Assembly: GCF_040215725.1 (NCBI RefSeq)
Contig: NZ_CP157967.1
Coordinates: forward strand, 3,566,501-3,630,500
Reading direction: 5' to 3'
DNA from: Rhizobium sp. ZPR4
GTDB taxonomy: Bacteria; Pseudomonadota; Alphaproteobacteria; Rhizobiales; Rhizobiaceae
Length of the DNA stretch: 64,000 nt
Each line of letters starts with the position of its first letter. The first letter of the stretch is position 1. The notes beneath the pieces are model-generated. The model worked only from the letters and a program-made list of their open reading frames with translations. It did not search any database and was not told the DNA's origin. Position numbers and translations under genes: made by a program. Positions 37,206 through 51,987 of this stretch are shown here, one piece after another.

Positions 37206-37526
37206 TCAGGCTGCGCTGGAAATCCAGTTCTGCAGGGCCGTCTTGGGGGCGGCACCGACCTTGATGTCAGCGACTTCGCCGGCCTTGAACATGGCAAGCG
37301 TCGGGATCGAGCGAACGCCGAACTGGGCGGCCAGTTCCGGATTTTCGTCGATATTGAGCTTGGCGACCTTGACCTTGCCTTCGAACTGCACGGCGAGCTC
37401 TTCCAGAGCCGGGGCGATCATCTTGCACGGACCGCACCATTCGGCCCAGAAATCAACGACGACAGGCTCTGCAGACTGCAGCACTTCGGTGGCGAAGTTG
37501 GAGGTATCGACTTTAACGGTAGCCAT
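37206..37526 (-). CDS. trxA: thioredoxin
   Basis: A 106-residue thioredoxin with the redox motif [18 protein letters not shown] and the cis-Pro segment [14 protein letters not shown]. It supplies electrons to reductases such as ribonucleotide reductase and methionine sulfoxide reductase. GGAG lies upstream of ATG 37526. It follows addA by 75 bases on the same strand and ends at a bidirectional terminator, so it is probably the last gene of the divL-amgK-murU-addBA run or has its own promoter. Confidence 0.97.
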
Positions 37527-37601: not shown

Positions 37602-40600
37602 TCACTTTGTCTCGAGCTCTGCAAGCGACAATGCAAGAGCCCTGTCCGACAGCGTGTAGATCGAAGCATTTTCGGTATAGACCAGCATACAGTCGACGCG
37701 CTTTCCCGGATAGAGCGGCGAAAGGATCTCGCGATAGATCGCAAGCTGGGCTTTGTGCGCGAAGGGAATGCTGTTTTCCTCACCGGGCGGCACGCGGTTC
37801 GTCTTGTAGTCGAGAATGACGACACGGTCGTCCAGCACAGCCAGCCGATCGATACGGCCGGAGACGGCGTAGGACTGGTTGCCGAGCTTCAGCGTGCCCA
37901 TGATCGAGACTTCCGCCTGTGCATGGGTGCTGAACGTGCCCTGCAGATCCGGATGCGACAGCAGCGCCATGACGGAATTGATCAGTGCATCCCGTTCGGC
38001 CTGCGGCCAAAAGCGCGCGGCGCGCTCGGCATAGCGTCGGGCGGCATCGGCGCGCTCCTCCGGTGCGATCTCGGGCAAGGTCTGCAGCATCCGGTGGATG
38101 AAGCGGCCCTTTTGCAGGGCGCGATCCGACTTGGCTTTCTCGCCGAAAAGCGCCGAAGTCACCAGCAGATCGTCGGCTTCCTCGTCGATGACGGTGCCGA
38201 CGCCGGATGGGCTGAGCGGCCGCGGCAAGCTTTTTTGCGGCGGCAGCGGCCGATGGAGACTGTCAGGCAGACCAACGCGCTCGGAACGCTTTTCATGCTC
38301 CCTAGCGGTCTCGAATTCGAGCTGAACCTGGGCAACCCGCCAGCTCAACCCCTCCCAGTCGCCGTCAGGTCCGGTGAAGGTCTTCTGTGCGCAGTGCAGC
38401 TCATCCCCACGCAACGCTGCGGAAATCATGGCGTGCCAGGTATCGGCATTTTCGCGGATGCCGCGATAGCCGCAGATGATCAGCCTATCGGCGGCGCGCG
38501 TCATGCCGACATAGAGCAGGCGGCGATATTCTTCCTCCGCTAGCGCCTGCAGTCGCGCGGTATCGGCCTGCGTCAGCGAATTGGCAAGGGCCGAGACCGG
38601 AACCCAGACCGGCAGCGGGATCTCATCTCCTCTGGTTTCGATCAGCCGCATCTTCGGCAGGTGCGTATGGGTGAAGGCCTTGCCGCCGCCATCGACGAGG
38701 AAGACGATCGGCGCCTCCAGCCCCTTCGAGGCATGCACCGTCATGATCCGCACTTCGTTGCGGCCCTTGTCCTGCTCGCGCTTGATCGTCGGCGCTTCCA
38801 GTTCCAGCGTCGAGATGAAGGATTGCAGGCCGGGCAGGCCGCTCGTCTCGTGATCGAGCGTGAAGGTCAGGAATTCGTCGAGGATATCGCTGACTTCGGT
38901 GCCGAGCCGCGCCAGAAACTGCCGTCTGCCGCCGAAGCTGCCGAGCACGCGCGCATAGAAATCATGGACCGGAAGGCTCTTCGACATAGCAAGGAAGGTT
39001 CTCAGGCGTTCGACCACCTGGCTTAAGCGCTCATGGCCATCCTTTGCAAAGGCCTGCAGGTGGCTCCAGACGCTTTCCTCGTCGCTGCGATAGGCCGCAA
39101 CGGCAAAGACATCCTCTTCGCTCAGGTCGAACAAGGGGCTCTTCAGCAGGGCACAAAGCGAAAGATCGTCCTCCGGCAGCAGCAGGAAGCGGCCGAGCGC
39201 CAGAAGATCCTGAATGGCGATATGGCTGGTCAGCACCAATCTGTCGGCGCCGGCGACGGGAATGTTACCGCGTCGCTTCAGGGCGCGGGTCAGCGCGTTG
39301 ACGAAGCTATCGCGCTTGCGCACCAGCACGAGAATGTCGCCGGCCTCGATGAAACGGGCCTTGCCCTTCTCGATGATCTTTTCCCGGCCGACAAGATTGC
39401 CGATCGTGTGCGCCATCCGCCGCGCCAGAATGGCGGCGGGCGCACTTTCCGGCGTCGAGTCGAAGGGTGCCGTCCAGTCTTCTTCCCTGGCCGCCGGCTC
39501 CGGCGCGATCATCTCCCAGAGATCGACGGCGCCGGGATGGCCGATGCGGCTGGAGCGATGCACCACGGGTTCGTTGACGGCGCTGAGGCCCCGGGCATTC
39601 TCCGGGCTGGTGAAGACGTGGTCGACCGCGCCGAGCACATCGGCTGTCGAGCGGAAGGAGAGGGGCAGCCGGATCGACGAGAATTGCTGGCCGCTCGCCG
39701 CCACGCGGCGCCGGGTGCGGTCGCTCTCCTCGGAAAACCGTTCGGGACGGGCGCCCTGGAACGAATAGATCGATTGCTTCTCGTCGCCGACGGCAAAGAT
39801 GGTTCTGAGCGTCGGCCGGGCGCTGTCGCCGGAGAAGAAATCCTCCGCCAGTGACTGTATGACGCTCCACTGGATCGGGCTGGTATCCTGCGCCTCGTCC
39901 ACCAGGATGTGGTCGATGCCCTGATCCAGCTTGTAGTGAATCCACGGCCCGACATCCTTCTTGGTCAGAAGATCGGCCGTGCGGGTGATGAGGTCCTCAA
40001 AATCGAGCTGGCTGCGCCGCTTTTTCAGCTCCTCATAGTCACGGTTCAGGCGATCGGCGAGAATTAGGGCTGCGTGAGTGGCGCGATACATCCGCATCAG
40101 CTTCAGCCGATCGCGGCAGGCAACAACATGGGCGCGTGCCTCAGCCACGGCATCGGCCAGTGCCGGTGCATCCGCGAGCATCGCCTTGACGAAGAACTGG
40201 CTGTCCGACTTCGGTTCGCCCTTGGCGGTCAGCACGGCTTTTTCGAGGATTTCGGCGCGCGCGATCGGATCTGTCTCGCGCTTGGCAAGGCGCAGTGCGT
40301 AGGCCACTTCCTGGGCCTTGGCGCCGCCCTTATCGTCGGCGAGTCTGAGGTAAAGCTCCAGCGTCGCGCCGGAGAGGCCCGGCAGCGGCCAGTATTGCTC
40401 CGCAATGCTCGTTTCCGTCTCGCCGGGCGAAAGGCCAAGACGAGCAAGCAACGCGGCCTCGATGCCGCCCTTGCGCTCGGCGCCTTCGGTAAAACGCCTG
40501 ATAGCATTGCGATTGGCGACGATATCGCCGAGCAGCGTCTCAAGCCCGGATTCATCACCGAGGTCGAGCACAAAGTCGAAGGCCCGCGCCAGTTCGGCAT

Positions 40601-41168
40601 CGCCATGGGGCGTCGTCGAGGTCAGCAGCGCACGGCGTGCATCGTCGAGCAGGACTTCGGCCGCCCGATCGTCGAGAACGGAGAAATGCCCGGCAACGTT
40701 GGCCTCGAGCGGGAATTGATGCAGCAGGGCTTCACAGAAGGCATGGATGGTCTGGATCTTCAGCCCGCCCGGCGTTTCCAACGCCTTGGCAAAGAGCCGG
40801 CGCGCCTCGGCAAGCTTGAAGAGATCCGGCTCCCTACCTTCGATATCGGCAATGCGCGTCTTCAGCTCTTCGTCCGGCATCGTCGCCCAGGCCGCCAGCC
40901 GGTCGAAGACGCGGTTGGACATTTCGGACGCTGCCGCCTTGGTATAGGTGAGGCAAAGGATGGCCGAGGGCCGCGCGCCTGCCAGAAGCAGGCGGATGAC
41001 GCGTTGCGTCAGCACATGCGTCTTGCCGGAGCCGGCATTGGCCGAGACCCAGGCCGAGCGTTCGGGGTCGGAGGCGATCGATTGCTGGATGGTCGTCCAG
41101 CTGATCCAGACGCCGGGATCGTCGCTTTCCGGCAGGGTGGCGATGTCGTCGGCGGAAAAATCACTCAT
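37602..41168 (-). CDS. addA: double-strand break repair helicase/nuclease AddA (alphaproteobacterial type)
   Basis: The UvrD-like helicase-nuclease subunit of AddAB, which resects double-strand breaks for RecA loading. ATG 41168 overlaps the addB stop (ATGAGTGA) and gives 1188 residues. Helicase motif I is ANAGSGKTHVLTQRV, motif Ia CLTYTKAAASEMSNRV, motif II ILVDEAQDTSPIQW, and motif VI LLYVGMTRAADRLIICGYR. The C-terminal RecB-type nuclease is SGRIDRLAVLDDRVVILDYKTNR, written here as GRIDR and LDYKTNR. The longer frame upstream (to 41243) overlaps addB. Confidence 0.95.
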   Translation of the reverse strand: MSDFSADDIATLPESDDPGVWISWTTIQQSIASDPERSAWVSANAGSGKTHVLTQRVIRLLLAGARPSAILCLTYTKAAASEMSNRVFDRLAAWATMPDEELKTRIADIEGREPDLFKLAEARRLFAKALETPGGLKIQTIHAFCEALLHQFPLEANVAGHFSVLDDRAAEVLLDDARRALLTSTTPHGDAELARAFDFVLDLGDESGLETLLGDIVANRNAIRRFTEGAERKGGIEAALLARLGLSPGETETSIAEQYWPLPGLSGATLELYLRLADDKGGAKAQEVAYALRLAKRETDPIARAEILEKAVLTAKGEPKSDSQFFVKAMLADAPALADAVAEARAHVVACRDRLKLMRMYRATHAALILADRLNRDYEELKKRRSQLDFEDLITRTADLLTKKDVGPWIHYKLDQGIDHILVDEAQDTSPIQWSVIQSLAEDFFSGDSARPTLRTIFAVGDEKQSIYSFQGARPERFSEESDRTRRRVAASGQQFSSIRLPLSFRSTADVLGAVDHVFTSPENARGLSAVNEPVVHRSSRIGHPGAVDLWEMIAPEPAAREEDWTAPFDSTPESAPAAILARRMAHTIGNLVGREKIIEKGKARFIEAGDILVLVRKRDSFVNALTRALKRRGNIPVAGADRLVLTSHIAIQDLLALGRFLLLPEDDLSLCALLKSPLFDLSEEDVFAVAAYRSDEESVWSHLQAFAKDGHERLSQVVERLRTFLAMSKSLPVHDFYARVLGSFGGRRQFLARLGTEVSDILDEFLTFTLDHETSGLPGLQSFISTLELEAPTIKREQDKGRNEVRIMTVHASKGLEAPIVFLVDGGGKAFTHTHLPKMRLIETRGDEIPLPVWVPVSALANSLTQADTARLQALAEEEYRRLLYVGMTRAADRLIICGYRGIRENADTWHAMISAALRGDELHCAQKTFTGPDGDWEGLSWRVAQVQLEFETAREHEKRSERVGLPDSLHRPLPPQKSLPRPLSPSGVGTVIDEEADDLLVTSALFGEKAKSDRALQKGRFIHRMLQTLPEIAPEERADAARRYAERAARFWPQAERDALINSVMALLSHPDLQGTFSTHAQAEVSIMGTLKLGNQSYAVSGRIDRLAVLDDRVVILDYKTNRVPPGEENSIPFAHKAQLAIYREILSPLYPGKRVDCMLVYTENASIYTLSDRALALSLAELETK

Positions 41169-44100
41169 CGCCGCCGCCTTCCTGTTCGTTTTCAGCCGTC
41201 GACCATTCCGAGACGCGGGCGAGATGATCGTAGTCTCCGCCATATTCGAACTGCTGCGCCGGGATCAGCCGCGAGGAAAAACCCTTCTCGCCCGATTGCA
41301 GCAGCGAGACGAATTTTACCAGCTGGTCCATCGATTCCTGCGCGAGATCCATAGCCGACTTCGTTTCCGTCTTGCCGCCGCGGCTGGAGTGTTCGTTGTT
41401 GACCTGGTCGACCTTGAAGCGGTCGCCGGGCCGCAACCGCACATAAAGCAGGTTTTCCGGCACCAGCGCGCCAATATTGCGGAAGGCACCCGCTTTCAGC
41501 GCATAGGCTTCCAGCGCTAGCTGCGGATCGAGCAGGGCGCGCGCCTGTGGCGGCGAGGGATTGTAGCCGGTCTTGTAATCGATGAGGTCGGCGCCCTTGT
41601 CACTCTTGATGTCGATGCGGTCGGCAACGCCTGTGAGGCGGATGCCGATCGGCTCGATCTCGACGCCGGCCGGCACTTCAGTTGCCGTTTTGCGCACTTC
41701 GGCTCGCCGCTCCGCTTCCCAGGCAAGGAAAGCCCGCGCCACTTCGCGGAACCGCGGCCGCCAGACGCTGTCGATATGCACGGGCAGCCGCTCCGCATCG
41801 AAGAGATCGGCAATGATCCGATCCATGGCCAGCGCCGCATCCGGCGTGCCGGCCCTATGCCCCTCGCGGACGAAGCGATCGATGATCTTGTGGTAGAGCG
41901 TGCCGCGCTCGGCCGGGCCGGGATCGCGGTTGAACGGGTCGACCGGATCGAGCCGCAGCACGCGCCGGGCGTAGATTGAATAGGGATCGCGCCGCAGCCG
42001 GCCCACTTCGCTGAAGGAGTAGCTCTTCGGCTGCAATTCCACGGGTGGCTTCGGGGCGGGGCGCAGCGCCGGCGCCTGGTTTTCACCCTCGTCGATCATT
42101 GCGGCCCAATGGCGATACTGGTCGCCGCGGAGCTTCATGGCGTCCTCCAGCGCCTCGCCGCCGAGGGCGATCAGGCGCTGCAGCCAGCGCGAGGCGACCG
42201 TTGGCGTCGAGCCCTGGCGCAGGGCGCGGGAATAAATCAGGTCGCGCGTGCCGTTCGCCATCTCGAAGTCGTGTGCGAGCTGGCCGATGCGGCGCTCCGG
42301 CGGCTCCAGGCCGATCTCCGTCTTCATGCTGCGGGAAATGAAGGGGTTGTTCGCCGTCTGCCCCGGCCATGAGCCTTCGTTCAAGCCGCCGAGGATCAGC
42401 GTATCGACACTCTGCAGGCGGGCCTCCAGCGTGCCGAAGATGAAGAGGCGGGGATGGCTGAGTGCCCGCGGTTTCACCGCCTGGCCCACGCAGAGCGCCG
42501 CCATGATATCGATCCACTGCACGCCATCGGCTTCAAGCTGGCCGTCGGTCTCGATGACATCTCGGAGCAGGCTGGCAAGCGTATCCCCGGCCTCGCCCGA
42601 CCAGAGGCCCGCGAGGCTGCCACGTTCGTCGACGGCCGCGGCTTCCAGCGCACGGCCCGTACGCTCGGCCCAGTCCGAAAGGGTCAGCAGCCCCTCTGAA
42701 GTCGGCAGGGAAAGTGCCGATACCAGCGGCTCGCATGCTGCGGTCACGCGCCGGGCCAGGGCGCGTGCATGCTCGATCGCCTCAGGCGGCAGCGCTTTGC
42801 GCCACTGCGGCGCATGGCGGTCATTGGCCTGCTCGGCCACGCGCTCATCGAGCAGAGCTTCCAGCCCGCCAATATCGACATTGGCGACGCCGCCCCTGAG
42901 CGCCAGGATCTCCAGCGCATCGACGCCCGGCCGGTGGGTTTCCGCGGGCAGGCCGAACGAGGCGAGGGGGTGTTTCAGCAGCGCCACGACGGCAACGGGA
43001 TCGCCGGGGCGAAGGGACGCCTCCAGCAGCAATTGCAGCAGCGTGCCTTGCGGCGTGGCGTTGAGCGGCGTGCCGGCCGAATCGTCGGCGGTGATGCCGA
43101 AGCGGGCAAGCTCGGCAGTCACGCGCCGGGCGAGATTGCGATCGGGCGTGATCAGGGCCGCTTGGCTTTCGCCACCGTTGCGGGCGGGCTTCTCCAGCGC
43201 CAGCCGTAGGGCGATGGCGATCGCCGTTGCCTCTTCGCGCTCGTTGGCTGCTTCGATCAGCGCTACATCGGCGAATGCGTCCGTGATTGCATCGGGAGCG
43301 AGCGTCTTGCGCCAGCTTCCCCAACCGCTCGTCGCCTTGGCCGGTGCCAGCGCGCGCGACAGGATCTGCGCCCGCATCTGCATGACTTCAGCCGCATCCG
43401 CGATGGGCTCGACATCGCGCCGCGTGACGCGCAACCGCTTCAGGAGCAGCGAAAGACCATATTGCGGATGGCTGCGCGTGGTCGGGTCTGCTCTTTCGCC
43501 GATGGATGTCTCCGGCGCCACGAGCTGCCAATCCTCCTCCGGCATAGCAAGATCGAGACCGGGCAGCACGATCACGCCCTGCGGCAGGGCGGCAACGGCG
43601 GCGATCAGCTCTGCCGTCGCGGGCACGGAACCGGTCGAGCCGGCAATGATGACGGGCCCCGGATGCCGCATGGTCGATATCCGCTGCACTTCGGCGCGCA
43701 GGACGGCGTTGCGGTTACGGGCGGGCGAGGATTTGCCGAGCTCTTCGAGGCGCGCCGGCCAGAAGCTGCTGGCAATGCGCAGAAATTCCGCAGTCAGCTG
43801 CCACCAGAGCGCATGGTCTTCAGCGCTGAGATTGGCAAGCTCGCTCCACTCGCGATCCTCGGTTTCAAGGGAATCGATGAGTTCGGCGAGATTGCGCGCG
43901 AGCCAAATGGCATCCGCCGGGCTTGCAGGCGCCACCAGCGGCGAATCGGAATGGATGTCGCGCACGATCTGCGGCAGTTTGTTGCGCCAGGCGAGGATCA
44001 GTCGCGCCAGTTCCAGGAGACGGGCGGTATTGGCAAGCGGCTGCGCCAGATCGGCTGTTTCGGGCAAGGCTTCCTCGAAATAGCCGCTATCGTCATCGGT

Positions 44101-44352
44101 CTCGCCGAGCGGACGAATGACCGGCAGGATGGCGGAGCGGCCGCCAAGCAACTCGACGAATTCCGAGCGCAGCACGCGGGCGGCACGCCGCGTCGGCAGG
44201 AAGATGCTGACCTTGGCGAGCGACAGCGGATCATCCGGATCGTGGCGGAAATGCTCGGTCAGCCGCCCGTCGCAGAGCGCTGCCGCCAAGGTCTTCAGGA
44301 AGGGCAGGCCCGCCGGAATCGTCAGGATGCGCTGCCGGTGCCCGCCTGCCAT
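41161..44352 (-). CDS. addB: double-strand break repair protein AddB (alphaproteobacterial type)
   Basis: Partner of AddA with an inactivated helicase fold and a second nuclease domain. ATG 44352 is used (1063 residues); a TTG at 44364 would overlap the murU-like stop. FLPTRRAARVLRSEFVELLGG lies near the N-terminus. The C-terminal nuclease shows RGTLYHKIIDRF, TGVADRIDIKSDKG and ADLIDYKTGYNPS. Cysteines that hold the Fe-S cluster in the Bacillus protein are not seen around these motifs, as in other alphaproteobacterial AddB proteins. It overlaps addA by eight bases. Confidence 0.94.
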   Translation of the reverse strand: MAGGHRQRILTIPAGLPFLKTLAAALCDGRLTEHFRHDPDDPLSLAKVSIFLPTRRAARVLRSEFVELLGGRSAILPVIRPLGETDDDSGYFEEALPETADLAQPLANTARLLELARLILAWRNKLPQIVRDIHSDSPLVAPASPADAIWLARNLAELIDSLETEDREWSELANLSAEDHALWWQLTAEFLRIASSFWPARLEELGKSSPARNRNAVLRAEVQRISTMRHPGPVIIAGSTGSVPATAELIAAVAALPQGVIVLPGLDLAMPEEDWQLVAPETSIGERADPTTRSHPQYGLSLLLKRLRVTRRDVEPIADAAEVMQMRAQILSRALAPAKATSGWGSWRKTLAPDAITDAFADVALIEAANEREEATAIAIALRLALEKPARNGGESQAALITPDRNLARRVTAELARFGITADDSAGTPLNATPQGTLLQLLLEASLRPGDPVAVVALLKHPLASFGLPAETHRPGVDALEILALRGGVANVDIGGLEALLDERVAEQANDRHAPQWRKALPPEAIEHARALARRVTAACEPLVSALSLPTSEGLLTLSDWAERTGRALEAAAVDERGSLAGLWSGEAGDTLASLLRDVIETDGQLEADGVQWIDIMAALCVGQAVKPRALSHPRLFIFGTLEARLQSVDTLILGGLNEGSWPGQTANNPFISRSMKTEIGLEPPERRIGQLAHDFEMANGTRDLIYSRALRQGSTPTVASRWLQRLIALGGEALEDAMKLRGDQYRHWAAMIDEGENQAPALRPAPKPPVELQPKSYSFSEVGRLRRDPYSIYARRVLRLDPVDPFNRDPGPAERGTLYHKIIDRFVREGHRAGTPDAALAMDRIIADLFDAERLPVHIDSVWRPRFREVARAFLAWEAERRAEVRKTATEVPAGVEIEPIGIRLTGVADRIDIKSDKGADLIDYKTGYNPSPPQARALLDPQLALEAYALKAGAFRNIGALVPENLLYVRLRPGDRFKVDQVNNEHSSRGGKTETKSAMDLAQESMDQLVKFVSLLQSGEKGFSSRLIPAQQFEYGGDYDHLARVSEWSTAENEQEGGGDE

Positions 44353-44356
44353 AGGC

Positions 44357-45088
44357 TCACGCAAACGCCCGGAAGTTCCGGATCGTTTCCTCCGCCTCGC
44401 CGACAGCCTCCGGTGTTCCCACCGTCAGCCAGTGGCCGTCGAGCATGGTGCCGTAGAGTCGGCCGCGCGCGATCGCCTTGTCGTAATAGGTGTTGATGTT
44501 GAAAGCGTCACCGGGTGCGTCATCGAGAAACGAAGGATTGATGACCAGCGTGCCGGCGTAAACCACGCCGTTGCCCGTAACGGCGCTGTAACGCGAGAGA
44601 CGGCCATCTTCAGCCATGCTGAAATCATTCTTGCCGTTGTGGCCCGTCGTCTTGTCCAAATCGACGCAGAGCATGCCGAAGTCCATGCGGCCCGCGTCGA
44701 AGAATCCGGCTAAGCGCTCTAGATTGGTCGGTTGACCTTCTTTCTCACCGATCCAGAAGAGATCCGAATTCATGACGAAAACGGGATCACGGTCAAGCAA
44801 CTTCAATCCCTTGGCCAGCCCGCCGCCATTGTTCATCAGCGCATCGCGCTCGTCGGAGACCAGGATTTCAAGGCCGCGATAGCCGCGCAGGTGCGCCTCC
44901 ATCTGGTCGGCATGGTGATGGACATTCACGACAGCCCGCTCGACACCTGCCTGCACCAACGCATCCAGTACATAATCGATCATCGGCTTGCCGGCGATCT
45001 TCACCAGCGGCTTCGGTATGGTGTCGGTGATCGGCCGCATGCGGGTTCCAAGCCCCGCGGCCAATACCATGGCTTGCTTGATGGTCAT
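44357..45088 (-). CDS. murU: nucleotidyltransferase, MurU-like (N-acetylmuramate-1-phosphate uridylyltransferase)
   Basis: A 243-residue sugar-1-phosphate nucleotidyltransferase from ATG 45088 (MTIKQAMVLAAGLGTRM). The signature AAGLGTRMRPITDTIPKPLVKIAGKP is the nucleotide-binding loop. Asp residues in VMNSDLFW and the KNDFSMAEDGRLSRY region complete the site. In Pseudomonas MurU turns MurNAc-1-P into UDP-MurNAc, bypassing de novo synthesis, and AmgK supplies the substrate. Here the upstream gene has an AmgK domain, which favours MurU over mannose-1-phosphate guanylyltransferase, the other annotation for such proteins. addB starts at its 3' end. Confidence 0.82.
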   Translation of the reverse strand: MTIKQAMVLAAGLGTRMRPITDTIPKPLVKIAGKPMIDYVLDALVQAGVERAVVNVHHHADQMEAHLRGYRGLEILVSDERDALMNNGGGLAKGLKLLDRDPVFVMNSDLFWIGEKEGQPTNLERLAGFFDAGRMDFGMLCVDLDKTTGHNGKNDFSMAEDGRLSRYSAVTGNGVVYAGTLVINPSFLDDAPGDAFNINTYYDKAIARGRLYGTMLDGHWLTVGTPEAVGEAEETIRNFRAFA

Positions 45089-45163
45089 TTCGTCTCGAAC
45101 TTTCGATTCGCTCTCTGATTTCCATAGCACAGGGCCGGAAAGCCGTCGCGGGGTCTCCGGCTG

Positions 45164-46675
45164 TTATGCCCGACCGATCCCGGCCTTCTCGCACCATTCG
45201 CGTAAGGGGGCGAGCGCTTCGTGTTCGAAGGCGATGGCGAGATAGGCGAGCGTGCGCGGCATGTGCTTCAGATATCCCGGCTTGCCGTCGCGTTGCAGCA
45301 GCCGCACCCAGAGGCCGGCAAGCTTGCAATTGCGCTGCGCCGACATGATCGCCCAGCTTTTCAGGAACTTGGCCTCGTCGAAGCCACCCTGGGCACGGCG
45401 CAGTGCGAGATAGTCTGACATCAACTGGTCATGCAGATCGCGCTCGATCGTCACCCGGGCATCCTGCACCAGCGAGGCGACGTCATAGGAGGTCGGTCCG
45501 ATCATCGCGTCCTGAAAGTCGATGATGCCGACGCGCTTTATGCCCTTTTGATGCGCCCGCCAGATGATATTCGGCGAATGCATGTCGCGCAGCAGCAGGT
45601 TCTTTTCCGCGTCTTCGAGCTGATCGATGAGCTTGTCCCAGATCGCCAGATAGTCGGCGCGTTCCTCTTCGCTTGCCGGCGTGCCGCGCTTCCAGGGCAG
45701 ATGCCAGTCGAGAAGCAGCCGCGCCTCCATCTTCATCGCGGTCCGGTCGAAATCCGGAATGTGATGGACGTGGTCCGGCGTGACCGGAATGTCATGAGGA
45801 ATGGAAAGACCGTGCAGATGTGCGAGGCAGGCGACGCTTTCGCGATAGCGCTCGGCAATCGGCTTTCCCTCCGCGTCGAGCACGCCGTCGGTGCCGAGAT
45901 CCTCGATCAGGAGGATGCCCTTGTCATAGTTGGCGGCAAGGATTTCCGGAGCGGCGAAACCGTTCTCTCTGAGGATATTGGCGATCGCCACGAAGGGATA
46001 GGTGTCCCAGGCAAGATGCGCGACCTTAGGATAGGGCTTGCCGTCAAGCACGGGCGGCCCTTCCGGCAAGCCCGGCCAATCCATCAGGATCACGCGGCGT
46101 CCTCCATCCTTCGGATAGACGGATTCGTAAGCCCGCAGCGAAGCATCGCCGGTCAGGAATCGCCTGACAGCGCCGCGATAGCCGTGCGCATCGAGAAAGG
46201 CGCGGATAGCAAGCACGCGCTCGATGCGCGCCATCTGCTTGGCCGGTGCCGTGATCATAACCCGCCGCCCGTCACCCTCATGCGTGAGCTTTAGGTCGAT
46301 GCGTTCCTTCGGCAGCTCGCCTTCGGCCATTTCGGGCCATTCGACGAGGCAGATGCCGGTCTGCAGGGCCTCGTCGAAGCCGAGCTCCGCCAGTTCGCTG
46401 GGATCACCGAGGCGATAGAGATCGAAATGCGAGACGGGAATGCGCAGCTCGTAGGATTGCACGAGCGTGAAGGTCGGGCTCGGTACGTCCAGTTCGGCGT
46501 CGTCGGCCATGGCCCGTAGCAGCGCGCGCGCCAGCGATGATTTGCCTGCGCCGAGATCGCCTGACAGTGCCAGACAATCGCCAGCCTTCAAGGCCAGCGC
46601 CAGATCCTCGCCGAGCTCGGCCGTGGCGGCGTCATCTGCAAGAAAGAGGGAAATGCTGTTGTCTGAGGCTGTCAT
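45164..46675 (-). CDS. TsaE-AmgK fusion: tRNA t6A ATPase plus anomeric amino-sugar kinase
   Basis: A 503-residue two-domain protein. Residues about 1-155 are TsaE (YjeE), the ATPase needed for t6A37 tRNA modification, with P-loop GDLGAGKSS (Lys45) and the conserved SPTFTLVQSYE. Residues about 165-503 form an aminoglycoside phosphotransferase-like kinase of the AmgK type, with GDASLRAYESVY, catalytic LRDMHSPNI (Asp364, Asn369) and GIIDFQDAMIGPTSYD (Asp386). AmgK phosphorylates the anomeric position of MurNAc/GlcNAc for MurU. ATG overlaps the upstream kinase stop (ATGA). The fusion is known in Rhizobiales; whether the halves cooperate is not. Confidence 0.92.
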   Translation of the reverse strand: MTASDNSISLFLADDAATAELGEDLALALKAGDCLALSGDLGAGKSSLARALLRAMADDAELDVPSPTFTLVQSYELRIPVSHFDLYRLGDPSELAELGFDEALQTGICLVEWPEMAEGELPKERIDLKLTHEGDGRRVMITAPAKQMARIERVLAIRAFLDAHGYRGAVRRFLTGDASLRAYESVYPKDGGRRVILMDWPGLPEGPPVLDGKPYPKVAHLAWDTYPFVAIANILRENGFAAPEILAANYDKGILLIEDLGTDGVLDAEGKPIAERYRESVACLAHLHGLSIPHDIPVTPDHVHHIPDFDRTAMKMEARLLLDWHLPWKRGTPASEEERADYLAIWDKLIDQLEDAEKNLLLRDMHSPNIIWRAHQKGIKRVGIIDFQDAMIGPTSYDVASLVQDARVTIERDLHDQLMSDYLALRRAQGGFDEAKFLKSWAIMSAQRNCKLAGLWVRLLQRDGKPGYLKHMPRTLAYLAIAFEHEALAPLREWCEKAGIGRA

Positions 46676-49251
46676 TCTGCTGCGACGGAATGGGGCAGGT
46701 CGGCCGAGGGGATTCGGCAGGTGACCGTCGTTCCCTTGCCGGGCTGGCTTTCGATCGAAACCTCGCCCTCATGCAGGCTGACGAAGCTTTCGACGATGGA
46801 AAGGCCGAGGCCCGCGCCGCTGCGCTTGCCGCCTTTGCCGCCGGAGGCGAAGCGGTTGAAGACCGTGTTGATCAAATCCTCGGGTATGCCTGGACCCTTG
46901 TCGACAACCGAGAAGACGAAATCCGCACCTTCGCGTCCGCATTTCAGCAAAATCGTCGATCCCTCGGGCGCGAAATTGGCGGCATTGGTCAGAAGTTTCA
47001 GCAGGATCTGCTTCAGCCGCTGTTGATCGGCAACGATGGAGCCAAGATGGGCGGGGACGGTGATTTCGAGCGTCACGCCGCTTTCCTGCAGCCGGTCGGC
47101 GATTTGTATCGACACTTCGTCGAGCAGGTCGGAGAGCAATATCTCGGAATAATTCAGCCGCATGATGCCGGCATCGAGCGTCGCCAGGTCGAGAATATCG
47201 TTGACCAGCGTCAGCAGCACCGAAGACGAAGTCGAGATATGGTCGATATATTCGGCCTGCCGCTCGTTCAGAGAGCCGATGCCCGGCGTCTTCAGGAGAT
47301 CGGTGAAGCCGATGATGTTGGTCAGCGGCGAGCGCAGCTCGTAGGAGACGTGCTGGACGAAATCGTTCTTCAGCTCGTCCGCCTTCAGCAGCGCGTCGTT
47401 CTTTTCCGTCAATGCCCGTTCGGCGCGTACGCTATCGGTCTTGTTGACGAAGGTCAGCATGGTCTGGGCGTTCGGCAGCGGAATGACGGCGTAGTCGAGC
47501 ACCAGATTGGAATAGAGCTCCAGCGTCCCTTGCGAGGATGGCCGCTCGTCGTCGAAACTGGTGATCTGTTCGGCAAAGCGCTTCCAGCCATCTGGCCGGT
47601 CATAGGAGGGAGCGCAGGCTTCGGCCAATGCCTGGATATGCGTATCCGGCTTCGCCTGCGCTTCGGTGATGTTCCAGAGGATGCGGAAGGCCGGGTTCGA
47701 CAGGCGGATGCGGCCATCCGGACCGAAAACGGCAACGCCTTCGGAAAGATGGTCGATGGTTTCGCCCTGGACCTTGACCAGCGTATTGTAACGCGTTTCG
47801 AGATCGACCTGCTCGGTCAGGTTCTCGAATACCCAGGTGGCGCCGCCCTGCGGATGCGCCGTCGCGAAAACCCGGAGGATCTGGCCATTGGGCAGGTGCC
47901 AGAGATCCGTCTGCGTGTCGAGTGCGCGGTAGACCGAAAGGACGCCGTCCTTCCATGTCTTCCAGCTCAACTGTTCGGGCAGCTTCTTGGCGCTGCGCAG
48001 CCTGTCCAGAAGCTCGCTATTGTCGGGCCGCTTTTCCAGAAAGGCGATGTCGAGTTCCCAGAGCTGGACGAAAGCCTGATTGTAGAATTGCAGCCGCCTG
48101 TCGCCATCGAAGATCGCAACCGGGGTCGCCAGATGATCGAGCGTTTCAGCATGGCTTTTCAGCGTGCGTGCGAGTTCCGCGCGGACGGATTCCGCTTCGG
48201 ACACGTCGATGGCGATCCCGGCCGAGCCGTTCGGGGCTTTGACGTCGACGACGTCGAAGAAGGTGCGGTTGCCATGGACGACCGTCGAGATCTTGTCGTG
48301 GAACGGCGATTCCGGCGTGGTGGCGGCGCGAATGCGCTCGCGGGTCACGGTCGTCAGGAATTCCCTTCCTTCTCGCACGGCCTCATCGGTCGAAACTGCT
48401 TCCACCGCTTCGCCATAAGCCTGGTTGACCCAGGTGAGCGTGCCTTCCGCATCGCGCTGCCAGACCGGCAGGTCGATGGCATCAAGCAGGTTCTGGAAGG
48501 TGGAGATCGATGTCATCAGCCGGTCGCGCTCGATCTTCAGCTCGGCGAGTTCCGCGCGCAGATTGTTGAGCGCGATGAAGCGGACGAAGGCACGCCCGCC
48601 GGAAATGCGGCCCTGCGCTTCCAGAATTTCGTCGCGGTTGGTTTCGACCACCATGTCGAAGCTCTGGCCGCTGCCGCGCAGCTTGTCGATCGCCTTGTCG
48701 AGTTCGCCGGCCGACCATGATTTCAGCCAGCGGCCGAAGGCGAGGAATTCGTTGTCTTGTGGCGCGCCCGTCTCGACCGGAAGCTGGCCGAGCAGTTCCG
48801 GCCGCGCATTCTGGCCGTCCCAGATGACGATGCGGCGGTTCTTGTCGGCGATCAGCGCCTGATATTGCGAAATGCGCTGATTGGCATCGGAGAGTGCTGT
48901 GCGGATCTCGCGGCTTTCATTCTCCATATTGCCGCGCTGGCGGACCATCCACATGGTCGAGAGGAGTGCAGCGGAGATGACGCCGATGATGACGGAGAAG
49001 ACGGCCATTTCCGAGGAGGTGAAGAGGCGCATGCTCGTCTGCGCGGCATCATTGCTCTGCGCGAAAACGGGACCCGCCAAGCCGGTCACGAGACCGCCGA
49101 AAACGCTGAGCCGCAACAGACGGCTAAAGGAGGCCAGCCGGCCTTTGCCGCGCTTCGCTCCCGCCGAAAGCCGATCTGCACGGCCCCGCAGCAACTGCGC
49201 CGCCGCTTGGCGTAGCGCTGGTCGATGCAGGTTGTCTTCCCCTTCAAACAT
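46672..49251 (-). CDS. divL: PAS-domain sensor kinase with Tyr in the H-box, DivL-like
   Basis: An 859-residue membrane-anchored sensor kinase homologue. Hydrophobic segments lie at about residues 43-64 (the first could be a signal peptide ending FAQS) and 82-103. Two to four PAS-like modules follow (for example LLDAIDLPVWQRDAEGTLTW and TPVAIFDGDRRLQFYNQAFV). The dimerisation helix reads FVQHVSYELRSPLTNIIGF, with Tyr637 where the phospho-accepting His should be. The ATPase domain is complete (LLKLLTNAANFAPEG, DKGPGIPE, GAGLGLSIVES). A Tyr at this site is the hallmark of DivL, the CckA-CtrA pathway regulator of Caulobacter and relatives. The stop overlaps the tsaE-amgK start. Confidence 0.85.
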   Translation of the reverse strand: MFEGEDNLHRPALRQAAAQLLRGRADRLSAGAKRGKGRLASFSRLLRLSVFGGLVTGLAGPVFAQSNDAAQTSMRLFTSSEMAVFSVIIGVISAALLSTMWMVRQRGNMENESREIRTALSDANQRISQYQALIADKNRRIVIWDGQNARPELLGQLPVETGAPQDNEFLAFGRWLKSWSAGELDKAIDKLRGSGQSFDMVVETNRDEILEAQGRISGGRAFVRFIALNNLRAELAELKIERDRLMTSISTFQNLLDAIDLPVWQRDAEGTLTWVNQAYGEAVEAVSTDEAVREGREFLTTVTRERIRAATTPESPFHDKISTVVHGNRTFFDVVDVKAPNGSAGIAIDVSEAESVRAELARTLKSHAETLDHLATPVAIFDGDRRLQFYNQAFVQLWELDIAFLEKRPDNSELLDRLRSAKKLPEQLSWKTWKDGVLSVYRALDTQTDLWHLPNGQILRVFATAHPQGGATWVFENLTEQVDLETRYNTLVKVQGETIDHLSEGVAVFGPDGRIRLSNPAFRILWNITEAQAKPDTHIQALAEACAPSYDRPDGWKRFAEQITSFDDERPSSQGTLELYSNLVLDYAVIPLPNAQTMLTFVNKTDSVRAERALTEKNDALLKADELKNDFVQHVSYELRSPLTNIIGFTDLLKTPGIGSLNERQAEYIDHISTSSSVLLTLVNDILDLATLDAGIMRLNYSEILLSDLLDEVSIQIADRLQESGVTLEITVPAHLGSIVADQQRLKQILLKLLTNAANFAPEGSTILLKCGREGADFVFSVVDKGPGIPEDLINTVFNRFASGGKGGKRSGAGLGLSIVESFVSLHEGEVSIESQPGKGTTVTCRIPSADLPHSVAAE

Positions 49252-49273
49252 AAGAGGTCTGTCTCCGTCTTTC

Positions 49274-49323
49274 AGAGCATGAAGCCGAAAAGTGTAAGCG
49301 GTTTTCGGATGACATCATGCTCT
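49274..49323. repeat. AGCGG hairpin repeat, copy 3 (best preserved)
   Basis: Outer arms AGAGCATGA (49274-49282) and TCATGCTCT (49315-49323) are perfect inverted repeats. Inner arms CCGAAAA (49285-49291) and TTTTCGG (49302-49308) flank GTGTAAGCGG. The layout matches copies near 28.35 and 57.14 kb. Confidence 0.75.
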
Positions 49324-49349
49324 ACTTATTTGATTGTAGATCGGATTCA

Positions 49350-49376
49350 GATTTTAGGCCGAACAGACCTAAAATC
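49350..49376. repeat. GATTTTAGG/CCTAAAATC palindrome
   Basis: GATTTTAGG, a nine-base loop (CCGAACAGA) and CCTAAAATC form a perfect nine-base stem in the same gap as the preceding repeat. It could be a second module of the same mosaic element. It lacks a T-run and is not a clear terminator. Confidence 0.55.
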
Positions 49377-49512
49377 ATCCGGCTCTACTGTGCCGCATCC
49401 TGACAAGACATCCCATTTTCATGGCTCCAGGCACGCCCGGTTCGTCACGAATCAAGTGTAAAAACAATACTGCCTAAGGGAATCTGCGGGAAGGGAGCTG
49501 GCTAAAAAATAA

Positions 49513-49538
49513 GCCCCGGCATTTGTCAATGCCAGGGC
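49513..49538 (-). terminator. ahcY terminator
   Basis: GCCCCGGCATT, loop TGTC and AATGCCAGGGC pair with one mismatch in eleven. On the minus strand it is followed by TTATTTTTTAG, so it should terminate ahcY transcription. Confidence 0.85.
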
Positions 49539-49568
49539 CACAAGATGTTGTGGATACTGTTTTTGTAA

Positions 49569-50969
49569 TCAGTATCTGTAGTGGTCGGACTTGAACGGAC
49601 CCTTCGGCGTCACGCCGATATACGAAGCCTGCTCTTCGGAAAGCTCCGTCAGCTTCACGCCGAGCTTGGCGAGATGCAGGCGAGCGACCTTCTCGTCGAG
49701 GTGCTTCGGCAGCACGTAGACTTCGTTCTTGTAGTGGCCGGGCTTGGTGAAAAGCTCGATCTGGGCCAGCGTCTGGTTGGTGAAGGAAGCCGACATCACG
49801 AAGGATGGATGGCCGGTGGCGTTGCCGAGGTTGAGAAGGCGGCCTTCCGACAGAAGAATGATGCGGTTGCCCTTGGCGAACTCGACCATGTCGACCTGCG
49901 GCTTGATGTTCGTCCACTTCAGGTTCCGCAGAGCGGCAACCTGGATCTCGTTGTCGAAGTGGCCGATGTTGCCGACGATCGCCATGTCCTTCATCGCACG
50001 CATGTGATCGATGCGGATGACGTCCTTGTTGCCGGTCGTGGTGATGAAGATGTCGGCCGAGGAAACGACGTCCTCGAGCTGAACGACTTCGTAACCGTCC
50101 ATGGCGGCCTGCAATGCGCAGATCGGGTCGACTTCCGTGACCTTGACGCGGGCGCCGGCGCCGGAGAGCGAAGCGGCAGAACCCTTGCCGACGTCGCCGT
50201 AACCGCAGACGACCGCAACCTTGCCGGCCATCATGACGTCGGTGGCGCGGCGGATACCGTCAACCAGCGATTCCTTGCAGCCATACTTGTTGTCGAACTT
50301 CGACTTGGTGACCGAGTCGTTGACGTTGATGGCCGGGAAGGGCAGCAGGCCCTTCTGGCTGAGCTGGTACAGGCGGTTGACGCCCGTGGTGGTTTCTTCG
50401 GTCACGCCCTTGATGGCGTCGCGCTGCTTGGTAAACCAGCCCGGCGAAGCCTGAAGGCGCTTCTTGATCTGTGCGAAGAGGATCTCTTCTTCTTCCGAAT
50501 GCGGGTTGGAGAGCACGTCCTCACCGGCTTCGGTGCGGGCGCCGAGCAGGATGTACATCGTGGCGTCGCCGCCATCATCGAGGATCATGTTGGAAACGCC
50601 GCCATCGGTCCACTGGAAGATCTTGTCCGTGTAGGTCCAGTAGTCTTCGAGGCTTTCACCCTTGATGGCGAAGACCGGAACGCCGGAAGCGGCGATCGCG
50701 GCAGCGGCATGATCCTGCGTCGAGAAGATGTTGCAGGATGCCCAGCGCACTTGAGCGCCGAGTGCGACCAGCGTCTCGATGAGAACGGCCGTCTGGATCG
50801 TCATGTGCAGCGAGCCGGTGATGCGTGCACCCTTCAGCGGCTGCGCTTCGCCGAATTCGGCGCGGCAGGCCATCAGGCCCGGCATCTCGGTTTCGGCGAT
50901 CGTGATTTCCTTGCGGCCGAAGTCGGCAAGGCCGATATCCGCGACGATGTAGTCCTTTTCAGTGCTCAT
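49569..50969 (-). CDS. ahcY: adenosylhomocysteinase
   Basis: Hydrolyses S-adenosylhomocysteine to adenosine and homocysteine, removing the inhibitory product of methylation. ATG 50969 ([18 protein letters not shown]) has GGAGA upstream and gives 466 residues; the longer frame to 51092 includes the untranslated leader. NAD-binding is shown by [18 protein letters not shown]. The active site includes [13 protein letters not shown] and [17 protein letters not shown] text ([19 protein letters not shown]). It has the 40-residue insertion of plant/proteobacterial enzymes. A strong ATAAAGA palindrome precedes the gene. Confidence 0.97.
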
Positions 50970-51096
50970 GAAGGTCTCCAGCCTGAACGATGCAGTCGCG
51001 CCGCGGGCAGACGCCTCGGCCGAATGCAACAAGAATTGCACGCTGACAGCGTGTGGATGATGCCGTGTAGCAGGCTTCAGGGTGGAAATCAATAAT

Positions 51097-51150: not shown

Positions 51151-51426
51151 CTAAATTTCCTCGCCGAACTTGTTGGCGACCAGCTGGTCGAGCGCCTCGA
51201 GCGCTTCGGCGGCCTGGTTGCCGCTTGCCGTTACCATTACACTGCAGCCGGGGCTGGCCGCCAGCATCATCAGGCCCATGATCGACGTGCCGCCGACCGT
51301 GGTGCCATCCTTCGAAACGGTGATCGCGGCGTCGTAGGCTTCGACGGTCTGCACGAATTTCGCCGAAGCACGGGCATGCAAACCCCGCTTGTTGATAATC
51401 AGGAGTTCCCGGGAAAGCTCGGTCAT
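51151..51426 (-). CDS. ptsH: HPr family phosphocarrier protein
   Basis: A small PTS phosphocarrier. ATG 51426 (MTELSRELLIINKRGLHARAS) gives 91 residues; a GTG at 51465 would add 13 residues and overlap the EIIA gene. The phospho-accepting His17 is in KRGLHARASAKF. The regulatory Ser48 is in GGTSIMGLMMLAA, the HPr kinase target motif, so both phosphorylation sites are kept. No EIIB or EIIC transporter is nearby, so it is probably a regulatory (PTS-Ntr-like) HPr. It acts with the adjacent EIIA and HprK. Confidence 0.94.
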   Translation of the reverse strand: MTELSRELLIINKRGLHARASAKFVQTVEAYDAAITVSKDGTTVGGTSIMGLMMLAASPGCSVMVTASGNQAAEALEALDQLVANKFGEEI

Positions 51427-51445
51427 GGGGGCGGTGTTTGCCTCG

Positions 51446-51847
51446 TTATTTGCCACTGAGCACACGGCTGGCCACGTTGATATATTTGCGCCCGGCCTCC
51501 GATGCTTCCACCAAAGCCCTTTCCATATTGTTGTCGCCGCGCACGCCTGCGAGCTTGATCAGCATCGGCAGGTTGACGCCGGCGATGACCTCGGTGTGGC
51601 CGCTATTCATGACGGAGATTGCGAGATTGGAAGGAGTACCGCCGAACATGTCGGTGAGGATGATGACACCGTGCCCGTCGTCGGCACCGGCAACAGCCTG
51701 CAGGATATCCTGCCGCCGCTTGTCCATGTCGTCTTCGGGACCAATGCATACCGTTTCTATGAACTTCTGCGGACCAACGACATGCTCGACAGCATGCCGA
51801 AACTCTTCAGCCAGCTTGCCATGAGTGACAAGCACAAGTCCAATCAT
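51446..51847 (-). CDS. manX: PTS EIIA component, mannose family (ManX-like)
   Basis: A 133-residue EIIA(Man)-type protein from ATG 51847 (MIGLVLVTHGKLAEEF), with active-site His9. VIILTDMFGGTPSNLAISVMN is the family core motif. It accepts phosphate from HPr. In rhizobia this protein is regulatory, linked to succinate-mediated catabolite repression, not to sugar transport, because permease components are lacking. The upstream in-frame extension to 51913 is not used. It lies between hprK and the HPr gene. Confidence 0.92.
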   Translation of the reverse strand: MIGLVLVTHGKLAEEFRHAVEHVVGPQKFIETVCIGPEDDMDKRRQDILQAVAGADDGHGVIILTDMFGGTPSNLAISVMNSGHTEVIAGVNLPMLIKLAGVRGDNNMERALVEASEAGRKYINVASRVLSGK

Positions 51848-51987
51848 GATATTACTGCTCCCATCGCATACGCAAACAGGTGGCCCATATCGCAATGCAG
51901 CAATGTCGTCCACCAGTGGGGGGACATCTTGGCGATGAAAAGACGAAGTGCAAGCTTAAAATACAGGATTTGCGCGCCTGTGCGGGC

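Follow-up and report, generated by a model that had tools for sequence, protein, structure and literature searches.

What does a tyrosine at the phospho-acceptor position of a sensor kinase tell us about the protein that carries it? The question is raised by a 64,000-nucleotide stretch of Rhizobium sp. ZPR4 (contig NZ_CP157967.1, positions 3,566,501 to 3,630,500; hereafter the window), in which a gene for an 859-residue PAS kinase reads Tyr637 where the phospho-accepting His belongs. We consider it very probable that this gene is the Rhizobium orthologue of divL, encoding the Tyr pseudokinase of the CtrA circuit, and that it lies within an old, shared gene order. DivL at this locus, together with its neighbourhood, is already known biology: for Rhizobium, the window bears out a standard component of the cell-cycle circuit around CtrA, and the notion of an operon peculiar to this strain falls away. 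The point that goes beyond the published statements we found, which are cited here from excerpts of the papers concerned, is that Tyr does not strictly define DivL.

The substitution had been located exactly by an initial annotation made from the sequence of the window: the codon on the minus strand is TAC and the residue is number 637 (context in the 859-codon open reading frame, NDFVQHVSYELRSPLTN; H-box, FVQHVSYELRSPL). That Tyr replaces the phospho-accepting His, as this annotation stated, is confirmed by the codon, by the Pfam HisKA match and by alignment with Caulobacter DivL (PDB 4q20), and the protein thus lacks the His expected of an active HisKA sensor kinase. The ATPase domain, which had been called complete, is indeed present as a HATPase_c match, and those residues of its N, G1, F and G2 boxes that we examined are canonical. 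Several PAS domains precede the kinase core (PAS_7 twice, in addition to weaker Pfam PAS matches), and hydrophobic stretches can be discerned by eye near residues 50–64 and 85–105 of the N-terminus. Among the closest relatives, taken as the best 80 of 487 loci and belonging to Rhizobium or labelled Rhizobiales or Rhizobiaceae (hereafter the 80 Rhizobiales-labelled loci), the site is Tyr in every case. As the residue is constant while its codon drifts synonymously (TAC in 52 loci, TAT in 28), Tyr637 is not a product of chance.

The assignment to DivL is borne out by sequence, structural match, phylogeny and gene order. Caulobacter DivL is the best match of the window protein among solved structures (4q20, E 5.2e-43), and in the comparison with Caulobacter DivL that the annotation had suggested, Tyr637 falls on the H-box Tyr, numbered Tyr550 in Caulobacter; the second-best PDB match, 7z8n, is a histidine kinase (E 1.7e-26). 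Searching the host genome (7.74 Mb, seven contigs) returned 40 matches, 30 of them with loci, namely divL itself (L001) and 29 kinases. Only divL is a DivL-grade match (E 0), the runner-up being a kinase matched at 9.5e-38 over the core alone. After removal of two fragments under 180 residues, 27 of these kinases were placed in a kinase-core tree together with a 164-row alignment comprising 160 orthologous loci (the census described below), the window protein and three named Rhizobium proteins, the last four all with Tyr. The 164 DivL rows split from the 27 kinases with a support of 0.987, a result rechecked on the unrerooted tree, and a second method separated 30 DivL rows from the same kinases at 100/99, with warnings of a single long row (HK_L015) and of a long-branch join within the kinases. 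All 26 own-genome kinases that cover the site carry His. The window protein therefore groups with DivL and apart from ordinary kinases, the reverse of the grouping that the annotation had named as evidence against its own assignment. In the order, 146 of 150 genomes matched at E <= 1e-60, each exactly once. Named relatives, within the best 80 of 487, put the sequence in Rhizobium, close to R. multihospitium at 97% identity and, at 99%, to strain 17-2069-2c, which bears the label R. rhizogenes.

Some observations weigh against this assignment. At E <= 1e-42, 160 of 289 class genomes matched, some of them two or three times. Many Rhizobiales carry two divL homologues according to a 2021 paper (PMC8116508, in excerpt), in contrast to the one per genome that we find at E <= 1e-60. 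The CA domain resembles the window protein less (mean identity 0.38 for 52 order loci and 0.35 for 106 class loci) than do PAS-b (0.44 in the order, 0.37 in the class) and DHp (0.58 and 0.48). Finally, ten other residues occur at the site among orthologues, which shows that some DivL proteins do without Tyr. Among the 25 NCBIfam families listed out of 77 matched, none is a DivL model, and all 25 score far below their cut-offs.

The window protein shares with DivL of Caulobacter crescentus (4q20; PMC4211667, as excerpted) the H-box Tyr, the PAS-rich input region, intact ATPase boxes and the partners DivK, CckA, ChpT and CtrA. In the host genome, CckA (872 residues) scores 1490 bits against NF046020 (cut-off 1000), CtrA 426 bits against NF045991 (cut-off 350) and ChpT 297 bits against NF046018 (cut-off 240), with ctrA about 700 bases from chpT; DivK is matched by PDB entry 1m5t (E 3.7e-59) and is followed by PleD (NF007135, 695 bits; cut-off 474). 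Rhizobial proteins named DivL, to which we liken the window protein by name, include Atu0027 of Agrobacterium tumefaciens (PMC3577659) and the Sinorhizobium meliloti protein, of which certain alleles suppress a cbrA mutant, consistent with lower CtrA activity (PMC11500502); both papers are cited from excerpts. In Caulobacter, as far as the part of Childers et al. consulted goes, DivL has neither kinase nor phosphatase activity, and its essential functions are independent of a phosphorylated DHp domain (PMC4211667). It binds DivK~P via a docking surface and its PAS domains, while free DivL activates CckA (PMC4211667; PMC7200025, both in excerpt). By analogy, a membrane-anchored Rhizobium DivL, unable to autophosphorylate, would sense the phosphorylation state of DivK through its dimerization and PAS domains; in the free state it would drive CckA into kinase mode, sending phosphate via ChpT to CtrA, and binding of DivK~P would remove this push on CckA.

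The same work, in the portion cited, describes Tyr as conserved throughout alphaproteobacterial DivL, with Ala in Magnetospirillum magneticum as the sole exception (Childers et al., PMC4211667). Our census qualifies this view. It covers 160 loci from 160 genomes, 107 from the class list and 53 from the order list. These were drawn from the best matches listed, usually with a single locus for each family of the order; the sample is non-random, leans away from the most diverged sequences and includes a single match even from genomes that have two or three. The site is Tyr in 140 loci and another residue in 20: His in eight, Phe in three, Thr in two, and Val, Cys, Ser, Arg, Gly, Gln and Lys in one each. 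Some of these ten residues stand in decayed, hard-to-align rows (e.g. L285, L296 and L299), in which the aligned residue is uncertain. The annotation's statement that the exchange of His for Tyr defines DivL thus holds as a rule and fails as a strict definition, and His orthologues in the conserved locus exist. His-bearing orthologues, which it had regarded as telling against the assignment, do exist in a few lineages, yet the identity of the window protein as DivL stands.

Loss of Tyr is of two kinds: drift, in which the ATPase has decayed as well, and exchange, in which it remains intact. Of the 20 non-Tyr loci, nine (four His, two Phe and one each of Val, Cys and Gly) keep every one of the seven scored ATPase residues, as do 121 of the 144 Tyr-type rows of the alignment. 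On the unrooted 164-row tree, His and the other states must have interchanged six times or more. On the kinase-rooted core tree, parsimony has His give way to Tyr once, at the base of DivL, and return several times; the deep branches are weak in this tree as in the class tree, and all trees were built without a mixture model. Judging from these sequences, His appears to have returned in DivL more than once.

The clearest case is the Sneathiellaceae. A search of this family (f43) found the protein at E <= 1e-100 in 24 of 25 genomes, and each of the 23 that cover the site has His, L323 stopping short of it. The His-bearing loci of the family comprise L263, L272, L298 and L300–L322 (proteins such as P0003, P0015, P0027 and P0059). 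The site motif is ASVSHELRTPL or ANVSHELRTPL. The closest named proteins come from Sneathiella glossodoripedis, S. aquimaris, S. chinensis, S. marina and S. chungangensis and from Oceanibacterium hippocampi, both genera belonging to the Sneathiellaceae. The best 120 of 2179 proteins divide into 60 with His (P0001–P0059 and a 67%-identical fragment, P0068) and 60 with Tyr, a split that tracks relatedness. P0068 carries the species label of the brown alga Discosporangium mesarthrocarpum and probably stems from an associated bacterium.

In a 45-row subset tree built with the site column left out, the nine Sneathiellaceae rows group together (99/94), with five Tyr rows next to them (100/98 for all 14). 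On this tree His and the other states must interchange three times, each change being forced by starred branches. Such counts are ambiguous as to direction; we read the changes as gains of His because the kinase-rooted tree places Tyr at the base.

The Sneathiellaceae protein shows DivL architecture, and the conserved gene order is present around L263 and L272, running from hprK to addA (L298, of the same genus, was retrieved without flanks). All six family genomes tested have matches to DivK (75–78% identity) and CckA (E 1e-149 to 1e-156), so the idea that the His state is tied to loss of DivK fails here. A lack of PleC or DivJ was considered as a possible cause of the His; with a PleC/DivJ-like protein of the Rhizobium host genome as query, the listed matches in the family were partial, mostly to the kinase core, and could not separate orthologues from paralogues. 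What sets the family apart is the His in HELRTPL, combined in L263, L272 and L298 with a full set of scored ATPase residues. Since His is clade-wide in the sample and the ATPase is intact, the residue looks as if it were maintained by selection.

We therefore put forward, as a tentative proposal to which we give somewhat less than even credence, that DivL has been naturally re-activated: in Sneathiella and Oceanibacterium of the Sneathiellaceae, there within the conserved locus, and independently in a few further lineages, Tyr would have reverted to His with the ATPase intact, yielding a working DivK kinase/phosphatase in place of a passive DivK~P sensor. His and intact boxes are necessary for an active kinase but not sufficient. 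In Caulobacter, the excerpted account of the Y550H allele is that it restored no autonomous activity but allowed autokinase activity stimulated by DivK~P (PMC4211667). If the proposal is true, the Sneathiellaceae protein is a natural counterpart of this laboratory allele, the pseudokinase state is reversible, and the family offers a natural experiment on why cells retain a kinase fold without kinase activity. A literature search by titles and the beginnings of abstracts, mostly excluding subscription journals, found no publication on a natural His-bearing DivL and none pairing DivL with Sneathiella.

The site is also loose elsewhere. Within genus g9 (L324–L337), the 14 loci comprise eight with Tyr, two each with His and Asp, and one each with Cys and Ser; DivK was matched at E <= 1e-25 in one of four genomes tested, a sample too small for a claim. 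The two loci of genus g277 differ (L164 Tyr, L212 His), and both have lost most of the ATPase box residues.

The genes around divL (Table 1) raise the further question of whether cell-cycle control is coupled to wall-sugar recycling and DNA break repair. The annotation described an overlapping run from divL through tsaE-amgK, murU, addB and addA, whose co-translation it called unusual and suggestive of shared timing. Overlap is seen at divL/tsaE and, among the longest open reading frames, at murU/addB (44357, 44364) and addB/addA (41161, 41243), where the true start codons could alter the picture; tsaE-amgK, ending at 45164, does not overlap the longest murU frame, starting at 45130. The label murU-like was apt, the MurU score lying under the curated cut-off. 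Nor is the arrangement unusual. Scored as the nearest among eleven searched genes within about 8 kb of flank, between which unsearched genes may intervene, ahcY upstream and tsaE downstream both flank divL in 79 of the 80 Rhizobiales-labelled loci, 40 of 56 order loci and 44 of 84 other class loci, these counts being lower bounds as many contigs end within the flanks. In Brucella abortus, an excerpted 2022 study showed by reverse transcription PCR that a 16-gene bvrR...divL...addA...trx operon is co-transcribed, and called it ancestral (PMC9491525). It has the order hprK, EIIA, HPr, ahcY, divL, tsaE, nucleotidyltransferase, addB, addA, trx; in the part consulted, the murU-like gene is named mannose-1-phosphate guanylyltransferase and TsaE alone is listed, where Rhizobium has the tsaE-amgK fusion (44357–46675 for the two genes).

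Table 1. Features of the window discussed in the text (window coordinates)
Feature	Position	Strand	Evidence
divL coding sequence, 859 residues	46672..49251	-	open reading frame, start ATG at 49251; domain matches; 4q20 match
TAC = Tyr637, phospho-acceptor position	47341..47343	-	codon read; aligned to 4q20 H-box Tyr
PAS_7, residues 371-483 (best stretch)	47803..48141	-	Pfam PF12860
HisKA / DHp, residues 628-695	47167..47370	-	Pfam PF00512
HATPase_c, residues 742-849	46705..47028	-	Pfam PF02518; N/G1/F/G2 box residues canonical
ATGA overlap, divL stop / first ATG of tsaE-amgK	46672..46675	-	ATGA at divL end in 80/80 Rhizobiales-labelled loci
tsaE-amgK fusion, 503 residues	45164..46675	-	TsaE PF02367 and TIGR00150 above cut-off; AmgK NF045698 below
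murU-like nucleotidyltransferase	44357..45130	-	NF045697 218.9 bits (cut-off 370)
addB	41161..44364	-	TIGR02786, 1226 bits
addA	37602..41243	-	TIGR02784, 1500 bits
trxA thioredoxin	37206..37526	-	TIGR01068
ahcY, conserved upstream neighbour	49569..51092	-	TIGR00936; synteny
HPr-family phosphocarrier, in conserved upstream block	51151..51465	-	Pfam/NCBIfam matches; synteny
EIIA-man family phosphotransferase system (PTS) protein	51446..51913	-	Pfam/NCBIfam matches; synteny
Terminator-like hairpin with T tail, after ahcY	49512..49539	-	found in 78/79 Rhizobiales-labelled loci
Dispersed palindromic repeat CCGAAAACCGCTTACACTTTTCGG, divL 5' region	49285..49308	-	8 genome copies with up to 1 mismatch

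The gap between ahcY and divL suggests where the unit starts in Rhizobium. A terminator-like hairpin lies thirty bases past the ahcY stop and recurs in all but one of the 79 Rhizobiales-labelled loci that have ahcY, whereas composition shuffles gave 0 of 240. Its stem pairs occur in 36 spellings, several of them altered on both arms and some differing in length or in one base alone. In the wider order 17 of 39 gaps hold such a hairpin against 0 of 117 shuffles, and among the remaining class loci 12 of 56 do so against 3 of 168. The case for an ahcY terminator rests on this conservation and not on the scan of the single window, in which positions 49150–49650 hold two terminator-like sites against 0.5 expected. 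With such a hairpin just upstream, divL is probably the first gene of a separate transcription unit in Rhizobium, unlike in the single Brucella transcript, although read-through may occur; the view that divL begins the gene run is to this extent supported. Within the unit, translation of tsaE-amgK is probably coupled to that of divL.

A functional operon that ties the timing of break repair and wall-sugar recycling to the cell cycle is a rival explanation, which we regard as improbable. It draws on the conserved gene order, on the ATGA junction found in all 80 Rhizobiales-labelled loci and on the Brucella co-transcription. The block, however, also contains ahcY, PTS genes and tsaE and has no common theme; outside the order, ahcY and tsaE do not both flank divL in 40 of the 84 class loci, partly owing to contig ends; and loss of AmgK in Caulobacter, where amgK and murU are CCNA_03649–03650, is reported in the excerpt to cause no significant morphological defect (PMC13046382). 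The exact CtrA full site TTAA-N7-TTAA is absent from all 80 ahcY-divL gaps (79 Rhizobiales-labelled loci and the window). We see no evidence for shared timing, nor for gene order as a functional link of cell-cycle control with repair or wall recycling; tsaE-amgK, murU, addB and addA would be passengers in an old and widely shared order.

A further reading takes Tyr637 itself to be autophosphorylated and to pass the phosphate on. Caulobacter DivL was reportedly proposed to be a tyrosine kinase in 1999, in a paper we know by its title in a reference list alone. In its favour stand the intact ATPase boxes of the window protein and their retention in most Tyr-type rows. All seven box residues also persist in orthologues whose site holds Phe, Val, Cys or Gly, and box retention thus does not depend on a hydroxyl that could be phosphorylated; with the reported lack of kinase and phosphatase activity and the dispensability of a phosphorylated DHp (Childers et al., PMC4211667, in excerpt), this makes a tyrosine kinase highly improbable. 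A recent loss of His from an otherwise ordinary histidine kinase, confined to this strain and due to a broken gene or a sequencing error, would need only one base change (TAC and CAC) but is refuted by the conservation of Tyr in 80 of 80 Rhizobiales-labelled and 140 of 160 census loci and by a frame open over its full length.

Among the neighbours of divL, the AmgK half of the tsaE fusion scores 204 bits against NF045698, under the NCBIfam equivalog cut-off of 500; it may still work like AmgK, and AnmK, of the same recycling route as AmgK and MurU, is encoded in the host genome. One sigma-70-like site lies within 49150–49650, on the plus strand and near chance (0.4 expected). The palindromic repeat CCGAAAACCGCTTACACTTTTCGG in the divL 5' region has eight copies in the genome at up to one mismatch, against none for the control.

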